Part shown: piece by piece, positions 128-28,912 of the stretch
Position numbering within the stretch: position 1 is the stretch's first letter
Layout of the letters: each line of letters starts with the position of its first letter
Source: Desulfobacteraceae bacterium
GTDB taxonomy: Bacteria; Desulfobacterota; Desulfobacteria; Desulfobacterales; UBA11574
Length of the DNA stretch: 33,845 nucleotides
Assembly: GCA_030604635.1 (NCBI GenBank)
Contig: JAUVVL010000004.1
Coordinates: 1-33,845, forward strand
Reading direction: 5' to 3'
Program-made: the position numbers and the translations under genes
The notes under the pieces: model-generated
Database searches by the model: none
What the model was told of the DNA's origin: nothing
What the model saw: only the letters and a program-made list of their open reading frames with translations

Positions 128-351
128 AATCAGACTCCGGTCGTGTCAAACTCGCGCATAAGTGGGCGTAATGAAAAAGGATGCTTTTCCCGAAATGTGA
201 CAAAGTAGAAATAATATATCCTACCATGATAAAAATTTCCAGTATCCGAATACCGTCCAGAACCAGAAGACGAGCCAGGCCAGGATGGTTACGGGAAGCC
301 CGTATTTAACAAAATCCATTATATCCAGCAATCTTTCACCGGTTGCAGGGT
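128..351. repeat. Segmental duplication of 31890-32133 (3' end and downstream flank of the DASS transporter gene)
   Basis: Near-identical sequence AATCAGACTCCGG...TTTCACCGGTTGCAGGGT versus 31890-32133; this copy has a 20 bp deletion and a few substitutions. Confidence 0.9.
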
Positions 352-541
352 TTCTTCCTCTCCGCTCCCTTTTGTTCTTCACCCAAAATTTCCCAAATCC
401 GCTGATAAGGACATCCTCACCGTTTTCAAGAGTTTTCTTCAAGATTTCCAAAATGGAGTCAACCAGTTGGGTGGAGCGATCATTGGTGAAATGGAGGCGG
501 TCATGGATAGTTTTAGCGATGTGGGCCTTGGTGAGGGTCAT
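221..541 (-). CDS. Chimeric ORF: IHF-alpha-like N-terminus fused to DASS/SLC13 transporter C-terminus
   Basis: MTLTKAHIAKTIHDRL...STQLVDSILEILKKTLENGEDVLISGFGKFWVKNKRERRGRNPATGE is IHF/HU-like; ERLLDIMDFVKYGLPVTILAWLVFWFWTVFGYWKFLSW is the tail of the 32003-33646 transporter. AGGAGA ribosome site upstream of the ATG. Confidence 0.85.
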   Translation of the reverse strand: MTLTKAHIAKTIHDRLHFTNDRSTQLVDSILEILKKTLENGEDVLISGFGKFWVKNKRERRGRNPATGERLLDIMDFVKYGLPVTILAWLVFWFWTVFGYWKFLSW

Positions 542-1659: not shown

Positions 1660-2199
1660 TTACCTGGTTCTTTTGAAATACTTAATACCTTGAGTCGGCA
1701 GTGAGATTTGAAGGGTATCGTTTTGAATCTTCCCTATTACTACGCCACCTGCCCTGGTATGAAGCCTTAACTCGCTGTCTCTTACATCCCATGTAAATGA
1801 GGCCTCATCATCAATCGCTCTCCAAACACTCACACTGTCTCTTACATCCCATCTAAATGAGGCCTCATCATCAATCACTCTCCAAACACCCACACCGTTT
1901 TCCTTAAGTTCGATATAGTTTTCAGGGTGTTCAGTAGATTGGTATATACCTGCATACCTGTCACCGGTGTCACACGAAAAGGTAAGTGTCACAATAAGGC
2001 CCGAAAGAACAATCAAAAAGGTGTTTCTTACATGTCTCAATCTAAGCGAGACCTTTGAAAAATGCTCAATTTTGTTCAAGTTCAAGGAAGGCGAAGATTT
2101 TAACCACAGGAATACATTGAGTATTTTGAGGATTAAAATTTGAGCCTGACACAGAAATTGGGCAAAAGAGGGTGTTTTGCAAAGGTCTCTAAGCATCAT
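1660..2199 (-). CDS. Small putative lipoprotein whose 5' end contains an in-frame MITE insertion
   Basis: Signal-like HVRNTFLIVLSGLIVTLTFSC (lipobox-like LTFSC); codons 5-53 derive from the MITE plus target duplication. Confidence 0.7.
   Translation of the reverse strand: MMLRDLCKTPSFAQFLCQAQILILKILNVFLWLKSSPSLNLNKIEHFSKVSLRLRHVRNTFLIVLSGLIVTLTFSCDTGDRYAGIYQSTEHPENYIELKENGVGVWRVIDDEASFRWDVRDSVSVWRAIDDEASFTWDVRDSELRLHTRAGGVVIGKIQNDTLQISLPTQGIKYFKRTR
1777..1896. repeat. 60 bp x 2 tandem duplication inside the lipoprotein gene
   Basis: GTCTCTTACATCCCAT[G/C]TAAATGAGGCCTCATCATCAATC[G/A]CTCTCCAAACAC... repeated at 1777-1836 and 1837-1896; encodes VWRVIDDEASFRWDVRDSVS/VWRAIDDEASFTWDVRDS. Confidence 0.95.
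2048..2189 (+). mobile_element. MITE-like element, copy 2 (complete, 142 bp)
   Basis: 15 bp terminal inverted repeats GAGACCTTTGaAAAA / TTTTGCAAAGGTCTC (1 mismatch) flanked by 5 bp direct repeat TAAGC (2043-2047 and 2190-2194); no transposase. Confidence 0.85.
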
Positions 2200-8676: not shown

Positions 8677-11600
8677 TTATTTCTTGGTTACGTTGACCAT
8701 AAAGGCCTTGGTTTCAGGTATCCTGGTGTTGGGGTCACCGGTCGACGGGGTGAGCAAGTTAGCGCTCTCCTCGGCGCCGCTTTCAGGCCAGCGCCATCCA
8801 TAATGCCAGGGAATACCAACCTGGTGAACAGTGTTCCCGGCTATCTTAAACGGTTTAAAACGCTTTGTTACAATAGCCGTGCATTCCAGAGTTCCACGCG
8901 CAGATGAAACTATTACACGTTCACCGTTCTTGAAGCCCCTCAATTTCCCAAGCTCTTCGCTCATTTCCACAAAAACCTGGGGCTGAAGTTCAAGCAGCCA
9001 CGGCTGAGGACGTGTCATGAGCCCTGTCTGCCAGTGCTCTGATACACGGTATGTCGTACTGACAAACGGGAACCTTGGATCGCATGTCAAGTATGCATCA
9101 GCATCTGTTCCATATACAGGCGCTGTAGGATTCATCCTTTGTTTGTTCATGAGGTTCTTTTCAATAGGACATTCCAGCGGCTCGTAATGTTCCGGGAACG
9201 GACCATCAGCGCGGCCAGGACCGAATATCTGCCCATGCCCATGCTTTCTCATGATAAAAGGATGCTTTGCATCCTTTCTTTTTGTTCCGTCAGGATTCTC
9301 GAGAGGATACCAGCCACCGTCCGGAACGTCTCCGATCCACTTCTTTGAGACATACTTGCCGTTCTCGACATTTCCTGCGAACCTGATAACCCAGTCTTTC
9401 TTATCCCACGGCTGTCCTTTGGGATCAACAGAAGCGCGGTTGTAAATAATTCTCCGGTTTACAGGCCAGCACCATGCAAAGTTCGGATACAGACCGATAT
9501 TGTTCGGAGCATCTACTTTACTGCGCCTGGCTGACATGTTTCCCTTTTCCGTATAGCTATGACAGTAGAGCCAGTTTGCAGATGAAGTTGAACCGTCAGC
9601 CTGCAGCCATGCAAAGCTTGGCACAAGCGTGCCTTTCTTGCAAAGCTTGCCTTTAACCTTGACATCGCGTGTAAAGTAGCCGTTTATCTCTTTGGCTACC
9701 TTGTGAGCATCATATTCGCCATTTGTCTCATAATCCCACTTGAGGTTGAGTATAGGTTCCGGGAATACTCCGCCCTCTTTGTAAACCTCTTTGATTTTAT
9801 GACCGAGTTGCATAATAATATGGCCGTCAGAAAGGCTGTTTCCAAGCGGTTTTGGCCCCTGATAGCGCCACTGCATCCATCTGCCGCTGTTGGTAATGCT
9901 GCCTTCCTTTTCAACCGACACACATGCCGGAAGCATAAAAACCTCTGTCTTTATTGTGGAAGGATTCATTCCAGGCCCTTTCCAGAATGAGCCTGTTTCA
10001 TTGTCAAAAAGGTTGACATTGACCATCCAGTCAAGATTTTCCATGGCCTTGCGTGTCTTATTTGAATTTGCGCCACTACAGGCCGGATTCATACCCCAGG
10101 CAAAGAAACCCTTGATAGTACCCTTGTACATTTCATCAAAGAGGGTTAACCAGGAATAATCGGTCCCATCGTCCACCTTTGGCAGCCAGTCATACCCGAA
10201 ATCATTTGCTTTAGTGGCGTTTTCACCAAAGAAGGATTTAAGAAGGCTGACTGAATACTTTGGATAATTCTGCCACCAGTTTGCGGAAAGCGGATCATTG
10301 CTTTTTGGAGTCCACTTTTTGTTATAGGCGGCAAGGGACACATTCGAAGCCCTTGGAGTCTTAAGATAGCCGGGCCAGATGTGCCACAGCAGACAGTGAT
10401 CTGTAGAGCCCTGCACATTTGACTCGCCTCGCAGCGCATTGACACCACCGCCGGCAACGCCCATGTTGCCAAGAAGAAGCTGTATCATCGCCATTGTCCG
10501 GATATTCTGGACGCCTACTGTATGCTGGGTCCAGCCCATGGCATACATAACCGTGCCTGCTTTTCCCATGGCGCCGGTAGCGGCATAAGTCTTGTAAACC
10601 TTTACAAGATCAGATTCAGGAGTTCCGGTAATCTCGGAAACCAGCTTGGTATTATACCTGCTGAAATGTTTCTTCAGGAGCTTAAGAACGCAGCGGCTGT
10701 TCTTTAAAGAGCGATCCATTTTCGGGACACCCTTTGAATCCATATCAAAAGCCCACTTGCTCTTGTCATATTTCCTGTTTTTTGCTTCATAGCCGGAAAA
10801 CAGACCATTTCTAAATTTAAATGCCTTTCCAACAATAAACGGCGCATTGGTATAGTTTGCGACATACTCTTTATTGTATAGCTTTTTATCGAGTATGTAC
10901 TTGATCATACCTCCCAGAAAGGCGATATCCGTACCTGAACGAAGAGCTGTATAAATATCCGCCTTTGAGGATGTCCTTGTAAACCGGGGGTCAACACTGA
11001 TTAGCTTGGCTCCCTTTTCTTGTGCCATCTGAACATACTTAAATGATATGGGGTGATTTTCTGCAGCATTGCTGCCCATGATCAGTATGCAGTCACTGTT
11101 CTTAATGTCGATCCAGTGATTAGTCATTGCGCCACGTCCGAACGACTCTGCCAGAGCCGCAACAGTTGCGCTATGTCAGATACGAGCCTGATGTTCAACA
11201 TATACAAGCCCGAGAGCACGCACCATTGCCTGATAAATCCAGCACTCTTCATTGTCTATGGCCGCGCTTCCGACTGAAGCAATGGCTTTTGTCCGATTTA
11301 CCACCTGTCCTTTGGCATTTTTGTGTTCAAATGATGCCTCCCTTGTTGCTTTAACTCTTTTGGCAATTTCCGTCAGCGCCCAGTCCCATGAAACCTTTTC
11401 CCATTTTTTGGAATAGGGGGCTCTATACATCGGTTCAAGAAGACGGTTCTCATTCTCTGCCAGTTGTGACAGGGCAGCGCCTTTTGAACAAAGAGAGCCT
11501 CTGTTGATTACATGATCCGGATCACCTTCGATGTTGATGACACGACCGTCACCTTTCTTGTTGGTATGCACAATAGCCCCGCAACCTACTGCGCAATAGC

Positions 11601-11751
11601 AGCAGATTGTGGTGGTCTCCTTGGCATACTTGGTCTTGAGCATCTGCGCATGGGCTTTGATCGGTGTAAGATCGAATCCCAAACCGCTTACTGCAAGACC
11701 GGCAGCAAAGGCACCGGTAATCTGGATAAACTTCCTTCGAGTAACATTCAT
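8677..11751 (-). CDS. fdhA: Formate dehydrogenase alpha subunit, selenocysteine-containing, Tat-exported
   Basis: ORFs 11176-11751 and 8677-11127 are in one frame separated only by TGA at 11176-11178: ...YVEHQARI-U-HSATVAALAESFGRGAMTNHW...; Tat motif TRRKFIQITGAFAAG, CCYCAVGCG 4Fe-4S site. Total 1024 aa with Sec at residue 192. Confidence 0.95.
11135..11178 (-). promoter_or_regulatory. Sec UGA codon (11176-11178) and putative bacterial SECIS element
   Basis: TGACATAGCGCAACTGTTGCGGCTCTGGCAGAGTC: small stem TGC-GGCTCTG-GCA at the spacing recalled for the E. coli fdhF SECIS. Confidence 0.65.
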
Positions 11752-13367: not shown

Positions 13368-13835
13368 TCACTTTCTCCGCTTGTTTTTGGGAAACAGTTT
13401 AAATGCTGCTGCCGGAGATTCCACCACTTTCTGGATTTTTTCCTGCATATCCTTTTTTTCGTCGGCGTCTTTTTTTTCCCATGCCAATTCAATCTTGGTT
13501 ACAAGTTCATCAATTTCACACGGTTTGGTCAGATAATCGTAGGCACCCAACTTAATCGCCTCAAGTGCTGTATCAACGGAGCCGTGACCGGTCAGAATAA
13601 GGGTTTCGGTAAAGAGCCCCAACTTTTTCATCTCTTTGAGCGTCATAATGCCGTCCATACCCGGCATTTTCAGGTCAAGAACCACCACATCAAAGCTGTC
13701 TTGCTCAAGCATACGTATGGCATTGTCTCCACTATCAACCACCGTAACACGGTATCCCCTGGTTTCCAGGAGTTTTGACACGTTGTCGGTAAAGACAACT
13801 TCATCATCTACCAGTAAAATTTTATAACCTAGCAT
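13368..13835 (-). CDS. Single-domain (REC) response regulator
   Basis: MLGYKILLVDDEVVFTDNVSK...VVVLDLKMPGMDG...ILTGHGS...DYLTKPCE; the longer ORF 13368-14207 overlaps the kinase gene and is not needed. Confidence 0.9.
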   Translation of the reverse strand: MLGYKILLVDDEVVFTDNVSKLLETRGYRVTVVDSGDNAIRMLEQDSFDVVVLDLKMPGMDGIMTLKEMKKLGLFTETLILTGHGSVDTALEAIKLGAYDYLTKPCEIDELVTKIELAWEKKDADEKKDMQEKIQKVVESPAAAFKLFPKNKRRK

Positions 13836-13875
13836 TTGAATTTGCTTGCCTCCTTTCCGAATATGGATATAGAGT

Positions 13876-15648
13876 TTATCTTTGATAGTTGCTTTCCAAA
13901 AGATCCGGAGGTGGACTGTATGGGAGAAAGAAATTGAATTCCGTCCCCTTGTCAAGTTCACTCCGAACCGTAATGTTTCCACCCAATTGTTTAATGGTAC
14001 TGTAAACGATGGATAGGCCCAACCCCGTTCCTTTGCCCACCGGTTTGGTCGTAAAAAACGGATCAAATATCTTTTCCAGATTTTCCGGGGGGATTCCCTG
14101 ACCGGTATCAGCGAATTCGATCTGAACCCCTTGATTTTGATCATCAGAACAGGTCGTGATACGAACCGCACCGTAAAGCTTCCCGCCGTCATGCGCGTCG
14201 ATTGCATTGGTAATCATGTTCAAAAACACCTGTTGAAGCTGGGAGGGATCAGAAAGAATCGGCGGCAGGTTTTCCTCAAAATCGGAAATAAATTTAACGC
14301 CGCTTGTTCTGGCCTCTCTTTCCGTCAGATCAATCAATTCTTTTATGAATGCATTGATGTCAATGGTTTCAATCACCGATGTCGTCCGGCGAGAAAAGCG
14401 GAGCAGGTTATACGTAATGTGTTTACAGCGCTTTGCCTGTATATCGATCTGTGTCAAAGAGTCCAACAATTGGTTTTTAAACTCCTCATCCAGAGCCGGG
14501 CTTCGCTCAACCAAATCGAGCAAGATCTGCTTTTCGGTTACAATGATGGCCATGGGATTGTTGATTTCATGGGCCACGCCGGCCGAAAGCTCTCCGATGG
14601 AAGCGAGTTTGCCGGCCTGCATGAGCTGTTTATCCAACCAATCGGATTCTATATCACGCTTTTTAATGATCGCAATCATATGTCTTGTAATCAGAATTGA
14701 GACTACAAGAATGGTTAAAGCACTCAGGTGAAGAAAAATTAGTGTCGCATAGTTGGCATGGTTGACTTTATTAAATGCCTCTGAATAATTTTGTTTTACC
14801 ACCAGTAACCAGCGGGTGGGGTATTCAAGCCAGGTCTGGCCCGCGATCTGACGCGGGAGCTTATGATTGCGGTTATCCGTGCTTTTTTCTAAAAAGCGGA
14901 TTTTAATACCTTCATGGAAAGTTCCGACGGGATAGGAGGCTTTCTCCATAATCTTACCGCTGAACCGCGAGCTGGTCTGAAAAATCCTATCCTTATTTAA
15001 AAGATATACTTCGCCGGTTTTGCCGATTCTGACATTTTCCACAAGGGAACGAAAAACTTCGGTGTCAATAGTGGCCCTTAAGATCCATTTTTCCCCTTTT
15101 CCAAAGCGGACAACTGCTATAATAAAATGCGGAACCCTGCGAAACCCCATAAACATATCGCTTATGTAAATGCCTTTCTTCATGACTTCTTTAAACCAGA
15201 AGGCCTGGGAATAGTTTTTGTCCATCAGATCGTAGGGGCCGATGTATACTAAATGTTTACCACTGGCATCGATAACCCCCAGATCCATATATGATCCATC
15301 TTCCCGGTTTATAATTTCGAAAATATCATTAAGATTCGATGCTTTTCTCAGGTAGTCCTTGGAGTGGGACTGGGCGATGATTTGGAGTTTGGAAGTGCGT
15401 TCTTTCAAAAATAACTCGATAATTTTTCGATGATGATTTACCTGGGTTCGAAAGGAATTCATCATAGCGGATTTTGCAAAGCGGGTATAATGAAGATTGA
15501 TTCCCCAACCTACCAAAAGAAGCGGAACAAGCGAACATACTATTGTTAACACTACGAATCTGCGGAATAATCTGGAGTAGTAAATTTTCTTCCGTGGCTT
15601 CCCGTTTTGTTCATTAGCGCTGCCGTTTACGGCCGTTCGTTCTTCCAT
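13876..15648 (-). CDS. Cache-domain sensor histidine kinase
   Basis: Two TM segments, periplasmic Cache-like domain ([25 protein letters not shown]), H-box [17 protein letters not shown]-box, [22 protein letters not shown]. Confidence 0.92.
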
Positions 15649-15696
15649 ACAAAAATTTTCCTTTAAGGAGACATCAATTATTCAGGGTTATCGTGT

Positions 15697-15726
15697 CTGC
15701 CTGCGGACACTCTCAGGCAGGCAGAT
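15697..15726 (+). terminator. Hairpin plus T-run between HDAC and kinase genes
   Basis: CTGCCTG-cggacactct-CAGGCAGGCAGATTTTT; no plus-strand gene precedes it, so function is uncertain. Confidence 0.3.
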
Positions 15727-15943
15727 TTTTAGAATATTTGGGTTATTGAGCGGTCAATATGCCGGGCAACCCTCTACGTTCATTAATTCAAAAACCATGC
15801 CACGACGGCCCGCAAGGCTCAGTTACAAAAGTCATTGATTTAGTTGACTTTAATATGGATCGGGGAAAAAATGCGGATTTAATATGGCGGAGTGTAAACC
15901 GTATAGAGACAATAGTGACCATTATAATATTCAGTAAAGATGA

Positions 15944-16996
15944 TTAGCGAAGTATTTTCCAGTATTTTTTCTGGATTCCAATCACTTTTTTTAGCGCAGA
16001 GAACCGGGGGACGCCGTGTAATTTTAGCTTGTCTGTCTTATCTCTGCGCAGCGTCGGTACATTGCACAGTTCCTGAAGGACACGCAGGCCGCATTCCCTG
16101 ATTCCCTTAAGGCTGTACCCCCCTTCCATGATAAACACGATGCGACCATTGCAGACGTTTTCCGCCGTTTCGAGCAGAAGACGGGTTAAAAGAGCATAGC
16201 CCTCGGGTGAAACCTGCATTGCGCCCAGGCGATCATGCATGTAGAGATCGAAACCGCAGGATACCAGAATTATTTCCGGCTGATATTCCCGTGCGACGGG
16301 ATTCAGTAAAAAATGGATGATCCGGGCAAAATCCATATCGCCGTGTCCTTTTCCCAGGGGAATATTAATGGTAAACCCTTCCCCTTTTTTGCGACCCACT
16401 TCACCCAAACTTCCGGTTCCCGGAAAAGCCGGAAATCCATGCATGGAAACAAATAGTACCGCATCGGTATCATAAAAGGCAGTCTGGGTTCCATTGCCGT
16501 GGTGTGCATCGATGTCGACAATCATGACCCTTTCAACAGAATGGCATTCCTTTAAGTATCTGGCCCCCAGGGCGATGTTATTAAAAAGGCAGAACCCCAT
16601 GGCCCTGTCAGGTTCTGCATGATGGCCGGGCGGCCTTAAGGGAACGAAGCCCCGGTCGGCCCTTCCTTTCCAGATTTCATCGAGAAGGCTGAATACGCTG
16701 CCCACAGCCAGGCGAGCGACATCATAAGACTTTTCAGTTGTCTGTGTATCCAGGTCAAACGCAAAAAGCGGCATTCCTGAAGTTCGTGCCACGCGTTCAA
16801 TATAATCGGGCGTGTGCACCATGGCAAGCTCCTGGGGAGAAGCGAGTCTTGGTGCTACCTCCGTCCACTTGCCCGCAAGAGAAGGCTCCTCCAGCACAGA
16901 AAGGATCGCTTGCAATCGTTTGGGATTTTCCAAATGGAAAATCTGTTCCAGGTGATGTGCAAACCGTTCGTCCTTAATGACAAGCAGTGGCTGCAT
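15944..16996 (-). CDS. Histone deacetylase/acetoin utilization-family (class II HDAC-like) deacetylase
   Basis: RPPGHHAEPDRAMGFCLFNNIALGA, MIVDIDAHHGNGTQ, SCGFDLYMHD and EGGYSL: metal ligands present. Confidence 0.92.
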   Translation of the reverse strand: MQPLLVIKDERFAHHLEQIFHLENPKRLQAILSVLEEPSLAGKWTEVAPRLASPQELAMVHTPDYIERVARTSGMPLFAFDLDTQTTEKSYDVARLAVGSVFSLLDEIWKGRADRGFVPLRPPGHHAEPDRAMGFCLFNNIALGARYLKECHSVERVMIVDIDAHHGNGTQTAFYDTDAVLFVSMHGFPAFPGTGSLGEVGRKKGEGFTINIPLGKGHGDMDFARIIHFLLNPVAREYQPEIILVSCGFDLYMHDRLGAMQVSPEGYALLTRLLLETAENVCNGRIVFIMEGGYSLKGIRECGLRVLQELCNVPTLRRDKTDKLKLHGVPRFSALKKVIGIQKKYWKILR

Positions 16997-18169
16997 GAGA
17001 CAAATAAGCCTTTTTGCGCAGAATTTTAAACTGTTTTTTTATGATCTTTCTGATTTCCTCAATCACATTTTCCTTAAGATCCCGGCAATGGTTTGCCATA
17101 ACCAGAACGGCTTTCACCAGATGCCCTTCTGGGCTTTTCAGCACATATTCGGAAATCCTACGGGATTGAAAGCCGGTGGAAGCATAAAACCCCCTGGCCC
17201 CGATTTCGGAATCAAGACGAATCTCATTAACTCGGGTAAAATAGGTTTTCCAAAGCAGCCAGACTCCCGCTACCAGAAGGACGCCGGCACCTTTGACAGC
17301 CGCAGGGGCGGCTTCTACCCGATTCCCGGTCTTGCCGCCCAGGGTGGCAATGAATTTGATTTCCAGAACCTTGCCAAACAGATGATCTTTAAAGACCAGA
17401 TAGACCAATCCCACAATTATTTGTTTTACCACGCATACAAACAGGTTCCTTTCCAGACCCCGGGCCAGACAGTTCAGAATGAATCTTACATGAAAAAATT
17501 CAAGGTTGATCTCGGCGATCTGTATCAGGCTGTCGATACAGTAGGGAAAACGGGCGAAAAATGCCGGCGTGTCAACATCAACCGTACCCCGATACAATAC
17601 ATTAGGATCGAATGCCTCTTCGGGTATCTTGCGTGCCGGGTTGTCTTGCTTGATATCTTCCAGAAAACAAACAAGCCCTTTGTAAAACGCAATGTTTGTT
17701 CCGTTTTTTAAGGGCGCAGGGGGTCTTTCCCCGGAAAAGGATATATTCGGTGGGTGATCCGGGTCGACTCCCAGCTTCTGGAGTTTTTTTTCAAGCGTGC
17801 GATGGCATAATCGATCTCATGGGTCACCATAAACTTGAAGCCTGCCGCCCGAATCTCTGCGGCGGAGTTGGGGTAACTAATAAGATCTTGTTTATACCGA
17901 AGTTCTTGTTTTTTAACCAGCGCGCCGTATTTGATCAAAAGGTGCTGTTCTATGGGAACCGTACCCTCGGTGAAGTAGAGGATTTTATTTACCGTAACCT
18001 TTTGGTTTTGAAAAAGGAAATAGAGATTACCTCCATGGAAGGCTTCGTCCGGATGTGAAGGCACGTCTATCTGGCCCCGGCCGAACATTCGCTCCAGTGA
18101 ATACCCTATATCGGAATCCCTGCGGGATATGGCAGCAATGGCCTGCTTTAAAGTCTCTCTTTTAATCAT
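16974..18169 (-). pseudogene. Hypothetical membrane-associated protein split by a -1/+1 frame change at an A8 run
   Basis: MIKRETLKQAIAAISRRDSDIGYSLERMFG...DYAIARLKK in one frame continues as KLQKLGVDPDHPPNISFSGERPPAPLKNGTNIAFYKGLVCFLEDIK...YRGTVDVDTPAFFARF... after the 8-T run at 17784-17791. Confidence 0.7.
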
Positions 18170-18197
18170 GGATACAATCGCTTCGCGATTTGACAGG

Positions 18198-19871
18198 TTA
18201 AATATGCTCGAAATCGGAAGATTCAATCCGCAAAGGAAGCTCGACGATGAAAGATGCTCCCTTTCCCGATTCGCTCCTGGCAGAGATCGTGCCTCCCAGT
18301 TTTTCAAGAATATCAAGACAGATCGGAAGCCCCAAACCCGTTCCCTCCTGCTTGCTGGTAAAAAGAGGTTCGAAAATCTTTTCCATGTTTTCTTCAGGGA
18401 TACCCGGACCATCATCGGTTATTGTTACGGTAACGCCGTTCGGGCGGGCGCGGGTTGCAAATATGATTTCACCGTCCTTTCCAATCGCGGTGACGGCATT
18501 TAAAACGATATTCTGAAAAACCTGGTGCAGTTTGGAAGGGTCGCTACGGACAGAGGGCAGATGATCCTGGTAATCCCGTTTTACCTTAATCCTTTTAAAA
18601 TCGAGTTCTTTGGTCAGTATTTCGATTAAATCATTCAACACATTATTTACATTTATTTCCATGATCATCGGTTCGCCGTGTCTGATAAATCCGAGGAATT
18701 TATCAATCGATTTGCGGCCGCGCGATGCCTGAGACTTGATTTGTTCCAGGCTTTTTGCGATTTCGCTTAAATTTCCTTTCAGGGTCAAATCCTCCATCCA
18801 CATGCGGGCCACATCGATATTGGCCAGGGTATCCTTGATATCGCGAAAGAAACCGTAAGAGAGCTCCATTGATGATGCCAAATAGCTGGTACAGCGAAGC
18901 TGCCTATCTAAAAACCGGATACTTTGCCGCTTGGCCTCCAGGCGTTCAACCAGATGATTGGTGCAGAGAAGCACGGTAAAAACAATCAAGATAGCCATCA
19001 AAATGAAGACAAAAACGCCGACGGCTCGCATGCGGTGCAGCGACTTTAAGGCCTCACTGCGGTCGATCTGGACGACACATAGCCAGAAAACGTTTTCGAG
19101 CCATATCGAGGCACGGATGCGTCCTTTGGATTCATTCAGCATAACCCCTTTAAAGCGTTTAAGATCTTTAAACTCGGATTGCCCCATCAACCGGCCCGCA
19201 TACCGGGGGCTGGTTTGAAATTTTCCGTTCCCGCTAACCAGAAACACGTCCATGTCCTTTGTATTGATCACTTCCGAGACCAGGTTGTCAAAAAAAACGG
19301 TGTCAACGGTGGCGCGTATGATCCAGACGCCTTCGCTGCCGGTCTGTTTAACGGCGATAATAAAGTGAGGCGCATTTCGGAAACCCATGAACACATCGCT
19401 GACGTATACGTCACTCGCCATAACGGCCTGGAACCATGCCACATTCTGGTAGTTTTTTGAAAGCAAATCATAAGGTCCCGTATAGGCAAGATGCCGGCCA
19501 TCATCATCAATGATACCCAGATCCTTAAAGCACGGCAGTTGCCTTTGCATGGACTGAAAAAGGGCTTCAAGGGTTCCCGGCCGGATCAGAGACGACAGGT
19601 CCCTGTTTTCCGATAGCTGTTTAAGATCCATGACACGTTCCGCCAGAAACTGATCTATGTCCTTCTTGTGGTAGAGCACTTCCGTGCGCAGGAGTTCCAT
19701 GGTTTTTTGCTTTAGAGCGGACGTCGCATAGTAGTACATTCCCCCGCCGATTAAAAGCAGCGGGATCAAAGCGGCGGCCAGAAGCGCCACCACAATGCTG
19801 TTCCACAAACGGCGGAAATAGGGGAAATCTTTTTTTCGAAAACGACGCGGCGTATGGTAGATTTCCGGCAT
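18198..19871 (-). CDS. Cache-domain histidine kinase-like protein with degenerate H-box
   Basis: Paralogous Cache domain (DLGIIDDDGRHLAYTGPYDLLSKNY); ATPase motifs HQVFQNIVLNAVTAI, DDGPGIPEE, EGTGLGLPI intact; H-box region reads LASSMELSYGFFRDIKDTLANI. Confidence 0.88.
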   Translation of the reverse strand: MPEIYHTPRRFRKKDFPYFRRLWNSIVVALLAAALIPLLLIGGGMYYYATSALKQKTMELLRTEVLYHKKDIDQFLAERVMDLKQLSENRDLSSLIRPGTLEALFQSMQRQLPCFKDLGIIDDDGRHLAYTGPYDLLSKNYQNVAWFQAVMASDVYVSDVFMGFRNAPHFIIAVKQTGSEGVWIIRATVDTVFFDNLVSEVINTKDMDVFLVSGNGKFQTSPRYAGRLMGQSEFKDLKRFKGVMLNESKGRIRASIWLENVFWLCVVQIDRSEALKSLHRMRAVGVFVFILMAILIVFTVLLCTNHLVERLEAKRQSIRFLDRQLRCTSYLASSMELSYGFFRDIKDTLANIDVARMWMEDLTLKGNLSEIAKSLEQIKSQASRGRKSIDKFLGFIRHGEPMIMEINVNNVLNDLIEILTKELDFKRIKVKRDYQDHLPSVRSDPSKLHQVFQNIVLNAVTAIGKDGEIIFATRARPNGVTVTITDDGPGIPEENMEKIFEPLFTSKQEGTGLGLPICLDILEKLGGTISARSESGKGASFIVELPLRIESSDFEHI

Positions 19872-19909
19872 GGCCTGTAAACCTTTCCAGCTTCCTATTT
19901 TACTTTATG

Positions 19910-20020
19910 TTCCACATACTGGAAAATATCCTGGAGCCTGATAAACCGGTCAAGAAAAAGAGTAATGGTCTTTGATCTTCATTTCCACATACTGGAAAAT
20001 ATCCTGGAGCCTGATAAACC
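19910..20020. repeat. 38 bp direct repeat (19910-19947 and 19983-20020) at the 3' end of the REC-CBS gene
   Basis: TTCCACATACTGGAAAATATCCTGGAGCCTGATAAACC present twice. Confidence 0.95.
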
Positions 20021-20816
20021 CTTTCACGGTCTCGCCCTCTACAACCGGCATGCACCGGACGTTGTTTTGGATCATCCGCCGGGCGACCTGGATGAGGTTC
20101 TCCTCGGGGTTGGTGGTTATGGGGTGGTCTGGCTGCATGACTTCGCTTAAGGTTTTGGGGGGGAGCCATTGGGGATTTTGGATCAGGTCGGACCAGACAA
20201 TGGAACGTTCGGGATGTTTTTTTTGGGCGGCATCCAGCAGATCTCGCCGGGTGACAATACCCTGAAATCGGTCGCCTGCATCCAGAACATACAGTTTTTC
20301 CTTGACCGGCATTCCCGCGTCCCTGATAAACACTTTCAGAGCTTTGACAAGCGGGTCCTGTGTTTCCAGCCGAATGAACAACGGCAAAGTGATTTCTTTA
20401 ACCAGGTTCCGGGGCCAGAGTACCGGGCGGCGTTTGATGTGCTCGACTTCGCAGGCTTCCATTATTTTTTCGGTCAGATCCTCGATATCGCAGGGCTTCA
20501 TTAAATAATCAAGGGCGCCCTCGCGAATGGCCTCCATTCCGGATTCGAGAGTGGCATAGGCGGTCAGCATGATGACCTGGGTGTGCGGAACCAGTTTTTT
20601 GATCTCAGCAAGGGTGGTTAGGCCGTTCATCCCCGGCATTTTGACATCGAGAACCACCACGTCAAAACGCTCTTTTTCCTTAACGGCATCCAGAGCCTGG
20701 AAACCGTCCAGGGCCGTGGACACCTGAAATCCTCTAAACCTTAACAGTCTGGCCATATTCAATATAAACTGTTCTTCGTCATCTACAAGCAGGACCCTTA
20801 TATTATTATTGCTCAT
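19950..20816 (-). CDS. Response regulator with REC domain and C-terminal CBS-domain pair
   Basis: VLLVDDEEQF...VVVLDVKMPGMNG...LMKPCDIEDL; then ...YVLDAGDRFQGIVTRRDLLDA... and MQPDHPITTNPEENLIQVARRMIQNNVRCMPVVEGETVKGFIRLQDIF. Confidence 0.9.
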   Translation of the reverse strand: MSNNNIRVLLVDDEEQFILNMARLLRFRGFQVSTALDGFQALDAVKEKERFDVVVLDVKMPGMNGLTTLAEIKKLVPHTQVIMLTAYATLESGMEAIREGALDYLMKPCDIEDLTEKIMEACEVEHIKRRPVLWPRNLVKEITLPLFIRLETQDPLVKALKVFIRDAGMPVKEKLYVLDAGDRFQGIVTRRDLLDAAQKKHPERSIVWSDLIQNPQWLPPKTLSEVMQPDHPITTNPEENLIQVARRMIQNNVRCMPVVEGETVKGFIRLQDIFQYVEMKIKDHYSFS

Positions 20817-20907
20817 GATATGTTACCCCCTTTGGATCGTGGCTGAATGCAACTCAAAACCATATTTCTAATTGCTGTTTTTTGGATAGGAGGCGTTTCG
20901 TTGCATT

Positions 20908-21476
20908 TTAAAAAAGATTAGCATGAAGGCGATGTAAATTCAACCGAACGTTCGACTTTTTTTCTTTTAAAAACAGAATGCAAATCAGGCTTAAAACTTC
21001 CGCCATTGCGACCATCGCAAAGGCCCAGTCAAGTCCCATATTCTGGCCTACAAAGCCAATCAAAAGGGGCCATCCCTTTTCTGACCAAAAAGTAACGGAC
21101 GAGGAGCGTCACGGACATTACCGAAAACAAGGCAGCGCCGGCCCCCTGCATTAGGCGGACAAGAATCAGCCATTGGGAGCCAAGAATAAAAGTAGCTCCC
21201 GGACGCCAGCGCAAACACCACCAGCCCCAGGCGCAGGACACGCCATTCACCCCATCGCCCTGACAGCAGCCCGCCCAGTGGTTTGACCAGAATCTCGACA
21301 ATATCATAAAGCGCGATCAATAGCCCGATGATAATAAGACCCGTCCCGGTTTCACGGGAGTAGGCAGGCAGATTGGCAGCGACAATATAGGCGCCGAAAG
21401 AAGTCACGAACCCGGTTAAGCCCAGGACCGTCAGCAGGAAAAGCTCTTTGCGCTTAATCAATGCATTGGGCGGCAA
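20908..21476 (-). pseudogene. Decayed MFS transporter
   Basis: MFS N-terminal half (LIALYDIVEILVKPLGGLLSGRWGEWRVL) continues in another frame (LGSQWLILVRLMQGAGAALFSVMSVTLLVRYF), then a third (LIGFVGQNMGLDWAFAMVAMAEVLSLICILFLKEKK); the middle is missing. Confidence 0.8.
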
Positions 21477-21489
21477 TTCGTTTAATACC

Positions 21490-22023
21490 TCATAAGGAGC
21501 AGAAAAAAACTACGGCGCAGAGTACCAGAGAAATCACCCATACCGAATGAGTTAAAGTGCCCTTGGCAACCGGGTGAAAGTGTGCATCCAGGCGTTTATG
21601 GCCATGTTCGCAAACATATGCCGGGGCCTGTCTGCCGGTTTTTTTATGCACTGTCTTTTTCCGCGTCACCCGGGCACCGCAGACTGCGCCTTCAGCACCA
21701 ATCTTCCGCTTGCAGGTCAGCCGCAGCCCAACAAGGTGGCAGGCGAGGTTATACATCCAGTTCCAGGTTATGCTGATTAAGGTTAGACATCCAAAAAATA
21801 CCAGCAAATGAGTTTTGGAAATACCGATGCCGGCAAGGTTTTCACCCAATTTTGCAGGTTGCAGAGGACCTTCCACGTTGCCGAACAACCCCAGATAATA
21901 CAGGGCAAAGCTGGCTCCCATGACGATCATGGTCCAGGCAAAGTTTTTTAGCCGTTGCTGGAAATACGTTCTGGTATTCCAGCCGGCGTGGGAGACATGG
22001 TGCCTGTCTCCTTGTTTTTTCAT
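21490..22023 (-). CDS. Two-TM membrane protein with Cys/His zinc-ribbon-like C-terminal motif
   Basis: Hydrophobic segments FAWTMIVMGASFALYYLGLF and LLVFFGCLTLISITWNWMY; then LTCKRKIGAEGAVCGARV...YVCEHGHKRLDAHFHP. Confidence 0.6.
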   Translation of the reverse strand: MKKQGDRHHVSHAGWNTRTYFQQRLKNFAWTMIVMGASFALYYLGLFGNVEGPLQPAKLGENLAGIGISKTHLLVFFGCLTLISITWNWMYNLACHLVGLRLTCKRKIGAEGAVCGARVTRKKTVHKKTGRQAPAYVCEHGHKRLDAHFHPVAKGTLTHSVWVISLVLCAVVFFCSL

Positions 22024-22074
22024 AGCATAACTCCCATCCGCTTTTTGAACTGCAATAGCGAGCGCATTCCACGC

Positions 22075-22304
22075 AGCTTGTTGAAGCGAAGCGAAAATCC
22101 CGCTTATCGGGGTTCGTAGCGCAGCGAAGATCCCGCTTATCGGGGCTGCGGGGTTAGGAATTTTAGCCCGCCAAGCTATCGGCGGGTAAACCTTTCGCCA
22201 AATTGATCCCGCAGCCTATGCTGCGGGAGTTATATAAAATCATAGCACGATTTTATTAAAGCCGGCGAATCCGAAAAGGGGACCCCGCAGCAGTACGGGG
22301 TCCC
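22075..22304. repeat. Cluster of REP-like hairpins downstream of the TauE gene
   Basis: Repeated (G)CGAAGAT/AATCCCGCTTATCGGGG; CCGCAGcctatgCTGCGG; TAAAATCatagcacGATTTTA (22235-22255); GGGACCCCGcagcagtaCGGGGTCCC (22279-22304). Confidence 0.8.
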
Positions 22305-22334
22305 GACCAGAGTTTTCGGAAAATTGAAGCCGGA

Positions 22335-23378
22335 TTAACCGGCCAGTTTTGCAATTACGTCAGGGATTATTTTATAAAAGCAGATGGCCGCTACAACACA
22401 GCAATAGGCCGGAACTACAATCTTCCACAACTTTTCGGGAAAGACCCGGGTCATGTAAGGTGCGGCCACCGCTGAAAATATCGTGGGAAGCATCAACGAC
22501 GGCAGCATAATGTAATCTATCACCACCCCCCCGGATAACAACGCGAGCCAGACCAGGATGGCGAAACTGCTCACCGTGCCCTCACATATGGCGGTAACCG
22601 CGAGCATGCTCTTGACCGGAACACCGGAGATCAGACCGCCGATGGTCACCACAGGCCCGTATCCGCCCCCGCCGACACCCTTATTGAAACCTGCCAGGGC
22701 CGCGAAACCTAACATCCGGTTCGGTCGATAAGGACGATCTTTCCTGGCCTGCCATACGGATATAACCCCCATCATCAGCAGCAGTATGGCCACATAAAGC
22801 TTGATCCATATTTTGGCCATTTTTAAATAAGCGTACACGGCGGTGATGGAAAAGGCCACGGCCAGACACCCGGCCACGGAAATGATCAACCACAATCTGA
22901 TCGTTTCCGACATGGGTTTAAATTTCCATTCCACGTTTTCAAACTCTCTGTGCAAAAATGCGCCCACGATTCCGGCCATACCCTGCTGGACCATCACAGC
23001 CGGGACGATCTGTTTGGGATCAAAGCCCATAACCAGCAGCAGCGGGGTAAGGGCGGTTCCGAATCCCATACCGGTGGAAGCGTCCATAAACTCAAAAAAC
23101 ATGGCCAGTGCCACGACACTCCAGAAGATGCCCCATTGATCCGTACCGACCCACCCTCTTTCTACGACAACCGGAGAAGCGATCCTTTGCGTGGCCTCAA
23201 ACGGATTGCCGGCCAGCCAGCACCCGACCAGAAAAACGATTAAAAATACAAAAACACCTCCCAGGGCCGCTCTTATCTGTCGCCACTCGGGAACGAGCCT
23301 TTTAAGCATGGTCTCTTTTTCGGCTTCAACCTCGCGGGCCACTTCCCATCCCATTCTTTTGTCTTTTGTTTCACTCAT
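22335..23378 (-). CDS. TauE/SafE-family permease
   Basis: Eight-plus TM helices with ...DASTGMGFGTALTPLLLVMGFDPKQIVPAVMVQQGMAGIVGA... and GFNKGVGGGGYGPVVTIGGLISGVPVKSMLAVT. Confidence 0.9.
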   Translation of the reverse strand: MSETKDKRMGWEVAREVEAEKETMLKRLVPEWRQIRAALGGVFVFLIVFLVGCWLAGNPFEATQRIASPVVVERGWVGTDQWGIFWSVVALAMFFEFMDASTGMGFGTALTPLLLVMGFDPKQIVPAVMVQQGMAGIVGAFLHREFENVEWKFKPMSETIRLWLIISVAGCLAVAFSITAVYAYLKMAKIWIKLYVAILLLMMGVISVWQARKDRPYRPNRMLGFAALAGFNKGVGGGGYGPVVTIGGLISGVPVKSMLAVTAICEGTVSSFAILVWLALLSGGVVIDYIMLPSLMLPTIFSAVAAPYMTRVFPEKLWKIVVPAYCCVVAAICFYKIIPDVIAKLAG

Positions 23379-23456
23379 AATTTAAACCTTCCTTTTTGCC
23401 AGTGTTAATATTAATTTAAACTTCTGATTTCCATATAATACTCTTATTATATATTC

Positions 23457-24515
23457 CTACCCATGAGCCGTGCCGATGTTCATGGCAAATTGAAGCACCA
23501 CATAACAAAGGTACACGCCCAGAAGATAAACTCCCTGCCAGCGCTTGAAAAAGCCATCCTTGTTCATGGAAATAAAAACCCTGAAGGACCAGAGGATGAT
23601 GAGCATGGCCGGGAAGTGGAAATGGAAAAAGTTGGGAGAAATCGCAAGGTCTCTGGCAGTGGACGCAGCGCCGATGACAAACAGACAGTTCAAGACATCT
23701 GCTCCCACAACATTACCTACCGCGATTTCCGGATGTCCTTTCCTGACAGAGGTTATGGCTGCCATCAGTTCGGGCAGGGATGTCCCGAACGCCACCATGG
23801 TAGCTGCAATGACATCCTCGGGCACACCAACTCGGAAGGCAATTTCCGACGCGCTGGGAACCAGCACCCGCGCGGCCAGCACTACCAAAAACAGACCTCC
23901 AAGAAGCATAAACCAGCATTTGCCCAGGCCCGTCAATTCGCCATCATCTTCGTCTCCTTCATCCAGGGCCAGATCCCCGCCCTGCCTGGCCCAGACATAG
24001 GTCATGTACATATAGATGCCCAGTAAAACCAGAAGGAAAATACCCACCGGTCGCGTCAGCATCGGCTCGCTCTTGGCGAGGAGCATAGCGCCAAGCGAAA
24101 TAAATACAAGCAGCGTTGCCGATCCCACCTGGCACCAGCCGGTCCGATTAAGAATGTATCTGTTTACCGGAACGACGGCCAGTATGCATGTCATCCCGAA
24201 GATCAGGCCGGTGTCGGCAATGATGGAGCCCACGCCATTTCCCAGAGCCAAACCCGGGTTGCCCATAAATGCTGCCATAACCGAAACAAATGCTTCCGGC
24301 ATAGTTGTCCCCAGTGAAATAATCGTGGCGCCGATGACGATTTTGGGCAAACCGGTTCGCCGGGCCAGATCGACAACGCCGTCAATCATCCAGTCAGCCC
24401 CCTTGGATAAAACAATGATGCTGACCACGGCGATAAGTAACAAAGCGTAGGTGGAAAATCCGGCGATTAAATTGTTTAAGAGCGTTTCATCTCCAATCCA
24501 GCGTAAAACAACCAT
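23457..24515 (-). CDS. CaCA-family sodium/calcium exchanger-like antiporter
   Basis: Two alpha repeats: IVIGATIISLGTTMPEAFVSVMAAFMGNPGLALGNGVGSIIADTGLI and VIAATMVAFGTSLPELMAAITSVRKGHPEIAVGNVVGADVLNCLFVIG. Confidence 0.93.
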   Translation of the reverse strand: MVVLRWIGDETLLNNLIAGFSTYALLLIAVVSIIVLSKGADWMIDGVVDLARRTGLPKIVIGATIISLGTTMPEAFVSVMAAFMGNPGLALGNGVGSIIADTGLIFGMTCILAVVPVNRYILNRTGWCQVGSATLLVFISLGAMLLAKSEPMLTRPVGIFLLVLLGIYMYMTYVWARQGGDLALDEGDEDDGELTGLGKCWFMLLGGLFLVVLAARVLVPSASEIAFRVGVPEDVIAATMVAFGTSLPELMAAITSVRKGHPEIAVGNVVGADVLNCLFVIGAASTARDLAISPNFFHFHFPAMLIILWSFRVFISMNKDGFFKRWQGVYLLGVYLCYVVLQFAMNIGTAHG

Positions 24516-24566
24516 AACCTCTACTCCCTGTTTAAATTTATATTTAAAAGCATTATACTTCTGATA

Positions 24567-24582
24567 AACAAAAGGCGTGCCA
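24567..24582 (-). promoter_or_regulatory. Candidate sigma-54 promoter upstream of the CaCA gene
   Basis: Minus strand TGGCACGCCTTTTGTT (GG-N10-GT; -12 element off by one base from TTGC). Confidence 0.5.
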
Positions 24583-24674
24583 AAAAATACCTGTGAAAAG
24601 TAAAAACATAACTTATTAATATATTAATGATTGTGGCGCTGGAATTAGATTGACTTGTCATAAAAATGTCAGAT

Positions 24675-24710
24675 CCGGACCCTTTACCGGACCCTTTACC
24701 GGACCCTTTA
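24675..24710. repeat. 12 bp x 3 tandem repeat CCGGACCCTTTA
   Basis: Three consecutive identical 12-mers. Confidence 0.97.
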
Positions 24711-24799
24711 GTGGACAATTCAAGGATGAAATTGTCACCTGTTTGTTTACACTGTCGTAGTATTAATTCAGACTTCTGAATAAATGGGTACCCAGAAGT

Positions 24800-24886
24800 A
24801 TTCGGGCGATCCGGTTTTAAAGCGGGTCACTGTTCGAGGGTGTTAGCGAGCGAGTTTAACGCGGTTTAAAACCGGATCACCTGAAT
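24800..24886. repeat. Palindromic intergenic element with ~22 bp inverted ends
   Basis: ATTCGGGCGATCCGGTTTTAAA ... TTTAAAACCGGATCACCTGAAT (3 mismatches between arms). Confidence 0.85.
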
Positions 24887-24942
24887 GCGATAATGTTTTT
24901 ACAGGCCCAAATGTTACAATCTTTCTAAGAAAAGTTTTAATA

Positions 24943-24958
24943 TGGCACTTTTATTGCA
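24943..24958 (+). promoter_or_regulatory. Candidate sigma-54 (-24/-12) promoter upstream of the CBS protein
   Basis: TGGCACTTTTATTGCA: matches TGGCAC-N5-TTGCA with GG-N10-GC spacing. Confidence 0.75.
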
Positions 24959-25066
24959 GTTACAACCGCAGTTCCTTATTTCGTCAGCAATAAATTTTGT
25001 GCATTTTGTGGCAAAAGAAATTCTAAACTAAGGAAAGCCTCTTTTTTTCAAATTTACAGGGGAATA

Positions 25067-25315
25067 ATGAGGGAACAGAGAGCAAAAGATATCGTTCTTC
25101 CTTTTAAGGATGGTATGCCGCTTCATCCATCAGTAACCATGAGCGACAAAATAGTTCATGCCATTGAGGTGATGGTGAAAAATGACCTCAAGAGTATCGC
25201 TGTAGTCCATAACAAGCGACCTATCGGTATGATCCGTCTTGAAGACGCTTTCCGAAAGCTGGGGCTTTCAGCGCCACAGAAAGAACGCTTAAGTAAAAAA
25301 TGGAAAAACCATTGA
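25067..25315 (+). CDS. Small stand-alone CBS-domain-like protein
   Basis: ITV-type CBS half-module: HAIEVMVKNDLKSIAVVHNKRPIGMIRLEDAFRKLG; RBS AGGGGA upstream of ATG. Confidence 0.75.
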   Translation: MREQRAKDIVLPFKDGMPLHPSVTMSDKIVHAIEVMVKNDLKSIAVVHNKRPIGMIRLEDAFRKLGLSAPQKERLSKKWKNH

Positions 25316-25349
25316 ATCAGGCCTGCCGTGTTCCTTTAGCTCTAGTACT

Positions 25350-26762
25350 TTAAACTTCCTTTTCGAATTTGTTCCTGAAATCCACGGCATCAATATCCGT
25401 TTCTTTCATCAGCCGGTGAAGGTATTGCCGTTGAATCCCGCCGATTTCGGCAGCCCTGCTGACGTTCCCGTTGCTTTTTTTCAGAAGTGTTTGAATATAC
25501 TCCCGATAAAATTTCCGGATCATCTTCTCTTTGGCGGTCTTGAAGTCCAGCCCGTTTACATCCTCATTGAAATCCGGATATAAAGGCTCGCGTTCATTAT
25601 CCAGGTATAGATCTCTTTTTTCCAGCGTATCGGTTCTGCAAAAGATTACCGCCCGCTCGATGATATTTTCCAACTCTCTGACATTGCCGGGAAAGTCCTG
25701 TGAAAGAATGGTCTGCATGGCCTCCGGCGAGATCGTACGGATATCTTTCTGATTAGCGCGGGCAAATTTTTTAAGAAAATGATAACTTAGAAGCGGAATG
25801 TCCTTTTTCCGTTCGTTGAGGGGCGGCAGTTCAATATGAATCACATTCAGACGATAATAAAGATCTTCCCTGAAACGTTTTTCTTTGATGGCCGTCTTGA
25901 GATTTTGATTTGTGGCGGCAATAAAACGCAGATCCGTCTTTTCAGTGACCAGACTCCCGACCGCTTTATGCTCGCCCTCCTGGAGGAGTCGCAGAATTTT
26001 CATCTGCATGTGAAGGCTGAGGTCGCCAATTTCATCCAGAAAAAGGGTTCCTCCATGAGCCTCTTCAACCAATCCCTTTTTATCTTTCCACGCACCGGTA
26101 AAGGCACCTTTCACATGGCCAAAGAGCTCGCTTTCAATGACCTGTTCAGGGATGGCCGCACAATTTACGGTGACCATTTTTTTTGAAGACCTCAAACTGT
26201 TCTCATGGATGGCTTTGGCGATCAATTCCTTTCCGGTCCCGCTGTGGCCGGTAATCAATACGGTAGCCATGGTTGGCGCCACCTGTTTGATACGTTGAGA
26301 TATCTCCTTCAACTCCGGTGTTGAGCCGACCAGGCCTGAAAGATTCGTTTTTCCAGCCAAAGCTTGGCGAAGGGTCTTATTCTCTTTGACGATCTCCTGC
26401 CACTTCATGGCCTTGTCAATGGTAAGCAGGATTCGTTCGCGCCGGAAGGGTTTGGTTATATAATCATAAGCACCTTTTTGAATTGCTTCCACAGCCGTTT
26501 CAATGGTGGCATAGGCCGTCATAATCACGACAGAAATATCCGGGTTGATTTTCGTGACTTGCTCGAGAAGTTTGATGCCGTCCACTTTCGGCATCTTTAA
26601 ATCGGTAATTACCAGATCAAAATGACGCTCCCTTAACAATTCAAGGGCCTTGAAAGCACTCGCCTCCGTGACCGGTTCATGCTCCGTGCCATCGGAAATA
26701 ATTCTTCCCAAAAGAACCAGCATGTCTTTCTCATCATCAATGATTAATATTCTGCCAGACAC
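25350..26762 (-). CDS. NtrC-family sigma-54-dependent response regulator (REC-AAA+-Fis)
   Basis: ILIIDDEKDMLVLLG...VITDLKMPKVDG; GHSGTGKELIAKAIH; GAFTGAWKDKKG; GTLFLDEIGDLSLHMQ; C-terminal HTH NVSRAAEIGGIQRQYLHRLMK. Confidence 0.95.
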   Translation of the reverse strand: MSGRILIIDDEKDMLVLLGRIISDGTEHEPVTEASAFKALELLRERHFDLVITDLKMPKVDGIKLLEQVTKINPDISVVIMTAYATIETAVEAIQKGAYDYITKPFRRERILLTIDKAMKWQEIVKENKTLRQALAGKTNLSGLVGSTPELKEISQRIKQVAPTMATVLITGHSGTGKELIAKAIHENSLRSSKKMVTVNCAAIPEQVIESELFGHVKGAFTGAWKDKKGLVEEAHGGTLFLDEIGDLSLHMQMKILRLLQEGEHKAVGSLVTEKTDLRFIAATNQNLKTAIKEKRFREDLYYRLNVIHIELPPLNERKKDIPLLSYHFLKKFARANQKDIRTISPEAMQTILSQDFPGNVRELENIIERAVIFCRTDTLEKRDLYLDNEREPLYPDFNEDVNGLDFKTAKEKMIRKFYREYIQTLLKKSNGNVSRAAEIGGIQRQYLHRLMKETDIDAVDFRNKFEKEV

Positions 26763-26770
26763 CTATCCTC

Positions 26771-28912
26771 CTATGTTGTGGTGAGAAGCTTTACGGTAAA
26801 AACGGTTCCGCCGGGTTTGTTCCGGTGGTTACCCCGCTGGCTGACGCACTCAATAGTTCCCCCATATTTGGTGATAATACCGTAGGTTACGAATAATCCC
26901 AAACCGGTCCCCTCTCCTTCGCCTTTGGTGGTGAAAAACGGTTCAAAGATATGGTCCATATCTTCCTTTTTAATCCCGATTCCGTTGTCCTCAAATTGAA
27001 CAACAACCTTGCGGCTACGTGTGCTCAGGTTTGAGCTTATCGCCAGGGTTCCTCCGGCCGGCATCGCTGCCGAGGCATTATTGATCAAGTTTAAGAAAAC
27101 CTGCTGAAGCTGGCGAAAATCCCCCTTAACCAATGGAATGTTATCCGCCAAGGATAAAAACAACGCGATGTCCTTTATTTCTAGAGTATGTTTCACCACT
27201 TGAATTATTTCCTTAAGGCATAGGTTCAAATCAGAGTACTCGGATTTGTCCTCACCCAGCCGGGCAAAGCTAAGGAGGTTTTCTACCACCTGTTTGCAAA
27301 TATAACCCTGTCTTTCAATGGTTTTCAGATCATTATATTCCTGGGAGCCTTTTTCTTTTTCTCGGAGCAAAAGATCGCAAAAACCCAAAATGACGCCCAT
27401 AGGGTTGTTGATTTCATGGGCCACGCCGGCCGCCAGTGTTCCCAGGGAAGCCAGCTTTTCCGTACTGATCAATTGCCTTTCCAGGCTCTTACTCTCAGTT
27501 ATGTCCCGGGCAATACACAGGACGGCGCTAACAGTTCCGGATTCATTTTTTAGCGGCATGAAATTTGCGCTGATCCATATCCGGTGTTCTCCCGTATATA
27601 TTTCAAATTCATCGCGGACACTTTTCCCGAGTTTATAAACCAGTTCAATCAATTTAAGCTGGTTTTCTGCAACCTCCTCAGAAAATAAGGCGGACAGGTC
27701 CTTGCCCAGGAATTCTTCACAATGGCCTCCGAAAAAATTGGCGGTAAAGCTGTTCATGGATTGGAACTTACCCTCTGTATCGACAGTAAAAATAAAGTCC
27801 TCGGCGCTTTCCACTAAAGAGCGGTACCTTTCTTCCGACCTTTTGAGTTCCTCGGTTCTTCTATTCACCTTCCATTCCAGGCGTCGAGACCATCGCATTT
27901 CTATAGACAGGACGCCCGCAGCGCCTAATACAATAATAATAACGGCCAATCCCTGGAGCAGGAGCAGTATCAGGTAGCCCCGATGAACAGCCTCTTCAAT
28001 TTCGGAAACAGGAGCCACTATTGCCGCCGACCATTTTTGAGGCGGATTGTCGGAAATGACGATGGGACAATAAGCGATCAGCTTTTTAATTTCCCCGGTA
28101 ATTCCTCGATGCCAGCCCGAAATATACCAACCCGTGCCTTCCCGTCCTTTAAGCATTTTTTCTTTCTGAATAAAATTGATTTTCCCGTAGGAAATTCGGC
28201 TGTCTCTTTTTTCACGGGCCTTGAAGCAGCTCTTGCCGATAAAAACTGTTTCCGGATGATAAAGAAAGTAACCCGACCCATCAATGATCCAGGCGTAGCC
28301 CGTCTTGCCCGACCGGATTTTCTTCAAAAAAGGTGTCAAAAACCAGGAAACATTTACATTAAAAATAAGCAGCCTCGGGCAATCCCCCGCCAGAGGCACG
28401 GCCAGTACCAGCCTTATTTCAGAAGGCTTTATGCGGGGTCGAGATGTCCAAACATTTTTTCTGTCCAGGGACTCGGGCCGGGGCAGAGCTTCCAATCGTT
28501 CAAGCTGAATATCCTTTTCATACCAGGGTCTATGAGGTGTAAAGATATAGGTCTTTCGGCTCTTTATGTCAATGATTTCAATTTTCCGGACGCCACTTTG
28601 CAGGACACGGATAAGATTCTTTTGGATACCCTCGTACCGCGCCTCCGGGTCAAAAGGTCCTTGAGAAATGTCTTTGCCTGCCAGCAAAATCTCCCTTGTT
28701 AAAAAATTCAGCTCTCTTTCAATCAAACTCGAGACATTACGGGCAACAACCAATTGTTCTTGACTAAACTGATCCACTACAATTCTTCTCATTTCTCCGC
28801 CGGACCACAAGGCAAATCCAGCGCATGCTGTCAGTAGAATAGCGGCCGCTATGGACACAGCAGCAACGATATTTTTATTTATCTTAGGACGTTTTGTTTT
28901 ATCCATACTCAT
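26771..28912 (-). CDS. Sensor histidine kinase (periplasmic sensor - PAS - HisKA - HATPase)
   Basis: Two TM segments; PAS ESAEDFIFTVDTEGKFQSMNSFTANFFG; H-box [47 protein letters not shown]. Confidence 0.93.
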   Translation of the reverse strand: MSMDKTKRPKINKNIVAAVSIAAAILLTACAGFALWSGGEMRRIVVDQFSQEQLVVARNVSSLIERELNFLTREILLAGKDISQGPFDPEARYEGIQKNLIRVLQSGVRKIEIIDIKSRKTYIFTPHRPWYEKDIQLERLEALPRPESLDRKNVWTSRPRIKPSEIRLVLAVPLAGDCPRLLIFNVNVSWFLTPFLKKIRSGKTGYAWIIDGSGYFLYHPETVFIGKSCFKAREKRDSRISYGKINFIQKEKMLKGREGTGWYISGWHRGITGEIKKLIAYCPIVISDNPPQKWSAAIVAPVSEIEEAVHRGYLILLLLQGLAVIIIVLGAAGVLSIEMRWSRRLEWKVNRRTEELKRSEERYRSLVESAEDFIFTVDTEGKFQSMNSFTANFFGGHCEEFLGKDLSALFSEEVAENQLKLIELVYKLGKSVRDEFEIYTGEHRIWISANFMPLKNESGTVSAVLCIARDITESKSLERQLISTEKLASLGTLAAGVAHEINNPMGVILGFCDLLLREKEKGSQEYNDLKTIERQGYICKQVVENLLSFARLGEDKSEYSDLNLCLKEIIQVVKHTLEIKDIALFLSLADNIPLVKGDFRQLQQVFLNLINNASAAMPAGGTLAISSNLSTRSRKVVVQFEDNGIGIKKEDMDHIFEPFFTTKGEGEGTGLGLFVTYGIITKYGGTIECVSQRGNHRNKPGGTVFTVKLLTTT

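Follow-up and report, generated by a model that had tools for sequence, protein, structure and literature searches.

The window analysed here, an entire contig (C178, 33,845 nucleotides) of the 3.54-Mb genome, in 376 contigs, of an uncultured sulfate-reducer-like Desulfobacteraceae bacterium, most likely carries close to one end a real and recent chimeric ORF, in which the start of a gene for IHF-alpha, a protein that bends DNA, continues in frame into the end of a gene for a DASS-family anion transporter (Table 1). On the comparisons set out below, this ORF is likely to be the scar of a recent non-reciprocal recombination, that is, a pseudogene of a redundant ihfA paralogue. An earlier note on this DNA had already described an IHF-alpha start switching in frame to a DASS tail, a description that is borne out by Pfam and NCBIfam matches and by the 98.5% nucleotide identity between the tail region and its donor. 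Absent from that note were the extension of the copy into the dispersed repeat MITE2 and the MITEs themselves, which probably account for one boundary of the event as well as for the point where the contig stops.

Table 1. Features of the chimeric locus, its donor and the adjoining repeats (window coordinates).
Feature	Position	Strand	Remarks
MITE1, 3′ part of a ~145-bp repeat, cut by the contig end	1-127	plus	~40 genome copies
MITE2, 3′ part, interrupted by MITE1	128-211	plus	ends TTCTACTTTGTCA..TGACAAAGTAGAA
Duplicated block spanning a piece of MITE2, the spacer and the transporter's 3′ coding sequence with its stop codon	148-351	minus	98.5% identity to 31930-32133
Chimeric ORF	221-541 including stop (221-223); protein 224-541	minus	106 aa
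Transporter-derived tail, 37 codons, residues 70-106	224-334	minus	hydrophobic C-terminal helix
Joint	335-349	minus	CCTGCAACCGGTGAA (P-A-T-G-E) vs CCTGAAACCGGTGAA in the transporter, 14/15 nt
IHF-alpha part, residues 1-69	335-541	minus	two helices, beta strands, first arm strand to Pro65 and PxTGE tip
5′ leader, conserved in the intact orthologue L063	542-737	minus	includes the ribosome-binding site
Internally deleted MITE2 copy, both ends present, beside the donor gene	31834-31993	plus	
Donor gene, DASS-family sodium-coupled anion transporter (PF00939, TIGR00785), intact	32003-33646	minus	547 aa

In a profile search, the Pfam family PF00216 (Bac_DNA_binding) matches residues 3-70 of the chimera (E 2.3e-18) over positions 1-68 of the 90 in the profile, which is the family hit on which the earlier reading of residues 1-68 depended, and the best NCBIfam family is IHF-alpha (3.2e-21). 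The NCBIfam scores lie below the cut-offs (75.4 vs 111 and 63.9 vs 120.25), but full-length ihfA paralogues of the same genome also fall slightly below them, so that coverage and not score decides completeness. The complete IHF/HU fold of ~90 residues, which includes both strands of the arm and the C-terminal helix, is not present in the chimera: residues 1-71 align with the same residues of solved IHF-alpha (1ihf_A, 99 residues), and the protein is cut directly beyond Pro65, which is retained and which is the intercalating residue at the IHF arm tip, with loss of the return arm strand and of the C-terminal helix (helix 3). Compared with ihfA/himA, residues 1-69, the leader and the arm-tip proline are thus shared, whereas the C-terminal third is a transporter helix instead. 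If translated, the ORF would yield a piece of IHF-alpha with one hydrophobic helix, most likely unable to fold as an IHF subunit. Its ribosome-binding site (AGGAG, 549-553) is intact; a scan for sigma-70-like promoters gave sites no more numerous than in shuffled sequence, and no promoter is claimed.

The tail, first put at ~34 residues, comprises 37 after the shared PxTGE motif. Its end of the chimera is 89% identical in amino acids to the DASS C-terminus (across transporter residues 502-547), but only the last 37 of the 547 residues and the stop codon are shared with the family, far from a full DASS transport domain. At the nucleotide level the copied block spans 204 nt and goes ~75 nt beyond the transporter stop codon, into MITE2, with 148-228 being 100% identical to 31930-32010. 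Within the coding tail there are two substitutions with respect to the donor, both of them amino-acid changing (V to I and A to T), so the tail seems to carry no sign of constraint, although substitutions so few neither allow a test nor decide whether the sequence is alive or dead. The two regions also differ by a 20-nt indel and by the insertion of MITE1.

The history of the other half can be read from an intact orthologue, L063 (JABXJY010000061.1, a Desulfobacterales MAG), which encodes 95 aa with 79% amino-acid identity across residues 1-72. Its nucleotide match to the window, which covers 390 nt at 84% identity and takes in 196 nt of leader, stops at position 348, inside the joint. Differences from this orthologue fall at the three codon positions as 8/6/28 (dN ~0.12, dS ~0.89, dN/dS ~0.13), which indicates old purifying selection on a gene that was constrained for most of its history. 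In its own genome the orthologue is followed by tRNA-Glu and tRNA-Gln, but the synteny differs between both loci upstream as well, so that the ancestral neighbourhood cannot be reconstructed. Tracing a displaced 3′ half of ihfA beside tRNA-Glu/tRNA-Gln/leuA-type neighbours led to tRNA-like and leuA-like matches on other contigs, with no ihfA remnant adjoining them.

At the joint itself, an exact run, AACCGGTGAA, continues into the copied block, and the switch from one gene to the other lies inside it. The 14 of 15 matching nucleotides that the earlier note ascribed to both parents hold for the chimera against the transporter, which is how the figure is measured; the same 15 nt read CCCCGGACTGGGCGT in the intact orthologue, and three ihfA paralogues of the same genome agree with the transporter at ~11-12 of 15. 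The extent of the parental microhomology is accordingly uncertain when judged from these relatives. Both motifs are conserved within their own families, IHF-alpha and transporter, so that the two coding sequences resemble each other here by coincidence, and because PxTGE is read in the same, fixed frame in the two genes, the frame was kept across the joint. A search for the joint sequence in viral contigs found none.

No second occurrence of the fusion was found in 60 relatives or in 389 genomes of the order with the chimera as query; the matches in relatives cover one half only, either residues 1-72 (IHF genes) or ~61-106 (transporters). Intact ihfA-like genes are present elsewhere in the genome: of its 12 matches to PF00216, five are full-length and ihfA-like by best model, so the loss of one copy would be unremarkable. 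IHF/HU genes are expanded here and in the family, where the chimera as query gives as many as 18 matches in a single genome. Two broken ihfA-like fragments were also noticed on contig C132 (L087, 10019-10201; L086, 2137-2202), one without the first ~28 residues and the other keeping only residues ~72-93; this decayed 3′ fragment was considered as the missing end and rejected, as it sits after an unrelated gene with no link to the locus. Neither a transporter-5′/ihfA-3′ product nor another close transporter copy was found in the assembly. A reciprocal exchange is ruled out by the intact transporter and by the lack of another close copy, and the intact donor together with the missing reciprocal product indicates one-way copying. 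The earlier suggestion of a recent recombination scar is supported by the identity of the copies, the intact donor, the intact orthologue elsewhere and the end of homology at the joint.

On the other side of the copied block lie two nested repeats, both of which are short, multi-copy and non-coding, with terminal inverted repeats and, for MITE1, target duplications, as is characteristic of MITEs. Complete MITE1 copies start with GAGACCTTTGCAAAACG and end with CAAAGGTCTC, these ends being inverted, and 5-bp target duplications flank other copies (L012, L013). Complete MITE2 copies of the same genome measure ~300 bp and are numerous, with inverted ends TTCTACTTTGTCA/TGACAAAGTAGAA. The copy beside the donor has an internal deletion that joins GTAATGAAAAA to GGATGCTTTTCCC and that, among the copies inspected, is found only there and on the chimera side; this private deletion implies common descent of both copies and not independent insertion. 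The AATCA that follows MITE1 in the window fits an insertion into MITE2 at GATAATCAGACTCC, and the left MITE2-MITE1 junction predicted from it was not found elsewhere in the assembly with up to 3 mismatches allowed. In the part of MITE2 next to MITE1 (128-147), the chimera side has the common genome variant and the donor a 20-nt insertion; the exchange may have stopped there, or one of the copies may have been altered afterwards, which leaves the exact end of the exchange uncertain. Many MITE1 copies lie at contig ends of this genome, and a repeat with that many copies explains why the contig stops here; MITE1 seems to be a main cause of assembly breaks in the genome. On contig C140 (L022, 1501-2320), MITE2 comes immediately after an HU-family gene and has a MITE1-like element nested in it, so such repeats do occur 3′ of IHF/HU genes in this genome. 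A further MITE1 copy, inverted, lies at 2041-2174 and forms the apparent N-terminus of a lipoprotein-like ORF (1660-2199, minus strand), which also contains a 60-nt in-frame tandem duplication (1775-1894).

The most plausible course of events would be the one-way copying of approximately the last 130 nt of the DASS gene, together with the MITE2 that follows it, with the 3′ end of ihfA being overwritten. The event would probably have one boundary inside MITE2, a dispersed repeat offering homology at many sites, and the other in the short microhomology within the P-x-T-G-E codons; MITE1 may have entered MITE2 earlier or later than this copying. Events with homology at one end and a microhomology of 3-10 nt at the other have been described (PMC8504540; PMC3240628), and MITEs have been described as recombination hotspots (PMC10969869). 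The pattern fits homology-facilitated illegitimate recombination, as known from Acinetobacter, pneumococcus and, at low frequency, E. coli, with which it shares a small non-reciprocal patch and, probably, the repeat anchor and the microhomology joint. However, those cases come from laboratory transformation or conjugation, whereas here the process is deduced from a finished product: identity ends within the dispersed MITE2, the flank beyond MITE1 is absent from the assembly, and with it the second boundary and the original ihfA 3′ end are out of sight, so that the anchor in MITE2 is presumptive. The locus also resembles the gene remodelling associated with Rickettsia palindromic elements and Coxiella QMITEs, where miniature elements likewise adjoin the remodelled gene as possible recombination sites and where in-frame fusions are known, but in the present case the added coding sequence comes from the transporter beside the MITE and not from the MITE itself. 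The locus would thus be a young and clear case of dispersed miniature repeats and a chance coding microhomology copying a gene end and leaving an open fused frame, an ORF of a kind that annotation could easily list as a partial IHF or small hypothetical protein.

The main rival of a recombination scar is an error of assembly, in which the transporter end of a strain variant would have been joined to ihfA near the contig end through a chimeric read or the wrong resolution of a repeat. Such an error would be helped by the short microhomology of the joint and by the nearness of the contig end, ~340 nt away, where the sequence breaks off within a repeat of ~40 copies. On the other hand, the tail is no plain duplicate of the donor, from which it is set apart by the two substitutions, the 20-nt indel and the MITE1 insertion, while the ihfA half and its leader match the orthologue. 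Moreover, identity to the ihfA side across the joint extends over ~15 nt at most, and the k-mers usual in assembly are longer than that. Judged from the assembled sequence, this origin appears unlikely.

If the 31.8-kb segment that separates the two PxTGE sites had been duplicated in tandem or excised as a circle, an ihfA-5′/transporter-3′ joint would equally arise, and both sites do lie on the same contig and in the same orientation, with the chimera showing the polarity of a duplication junction. The segment would nevertheless be expected twice, but 29800-31830, which lies beyond the transporter end and holds a kinase gene (30080-31753), has no second copy in the genome, the closest other match reaching 69% identity; homology ends inside MITE2, no contig break occurs at the donor, and a duplication of recent date would not show the differences observed, all of which makes this origin quite improbable. 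A working new protein, in which the transporter helix would hold an IHF-alpha fragment at the membrane, has in its favour the open reading frame, the intact ribosome-binding site, the conserved leader and the hydrophobic tail, but it is very hard to reconcile with a single occurrence among the 389 genomes, with the loss of half of the DNA-binding arm and of helix 3 relative to solved IHF-alpha, with a tail devoid of signs of constraint and with the five full-length paralogues.

The membrane-tethered nucleoid fragment that had been offered in the earlier note as the other outcome is likewise unsupported, given its uniqueness in the order, the missing return strand and helix, and tail differences that all change amino acids. 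That the chimera is expressed as a membrane-anchored IHF-alpha fragment, for instance one that titrates IHF-beta or holds DNA at the membrane, is very improbable; if it were functional, which nothing here supports, a nucleoid protein would have become membrane-tethered in one step, through a single microhomology event.

Apart from the scar and its repeats, some other features of the window deserve mention. The formate dehydrogenase alpha subunit gene (8677-11751, minus strand) is split at codon 192, the usual position of selenocysteine, by an in-frame TGA (HQARI-U-HSATVA), and gives a single protein of 1024 aa when this TGA is read as Sec. A major-facilitator-like transporter ORF (21029-21476, minus strand) is apparently broken by a frame change and a truncation. 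Finally, the region 13368-31753 (minus strand) holds several sensor histidine kinases and response regulators alternating with transporter-like genes (TauE/SafE-like, Na+/Ca2+ exchanger-like and DASS).
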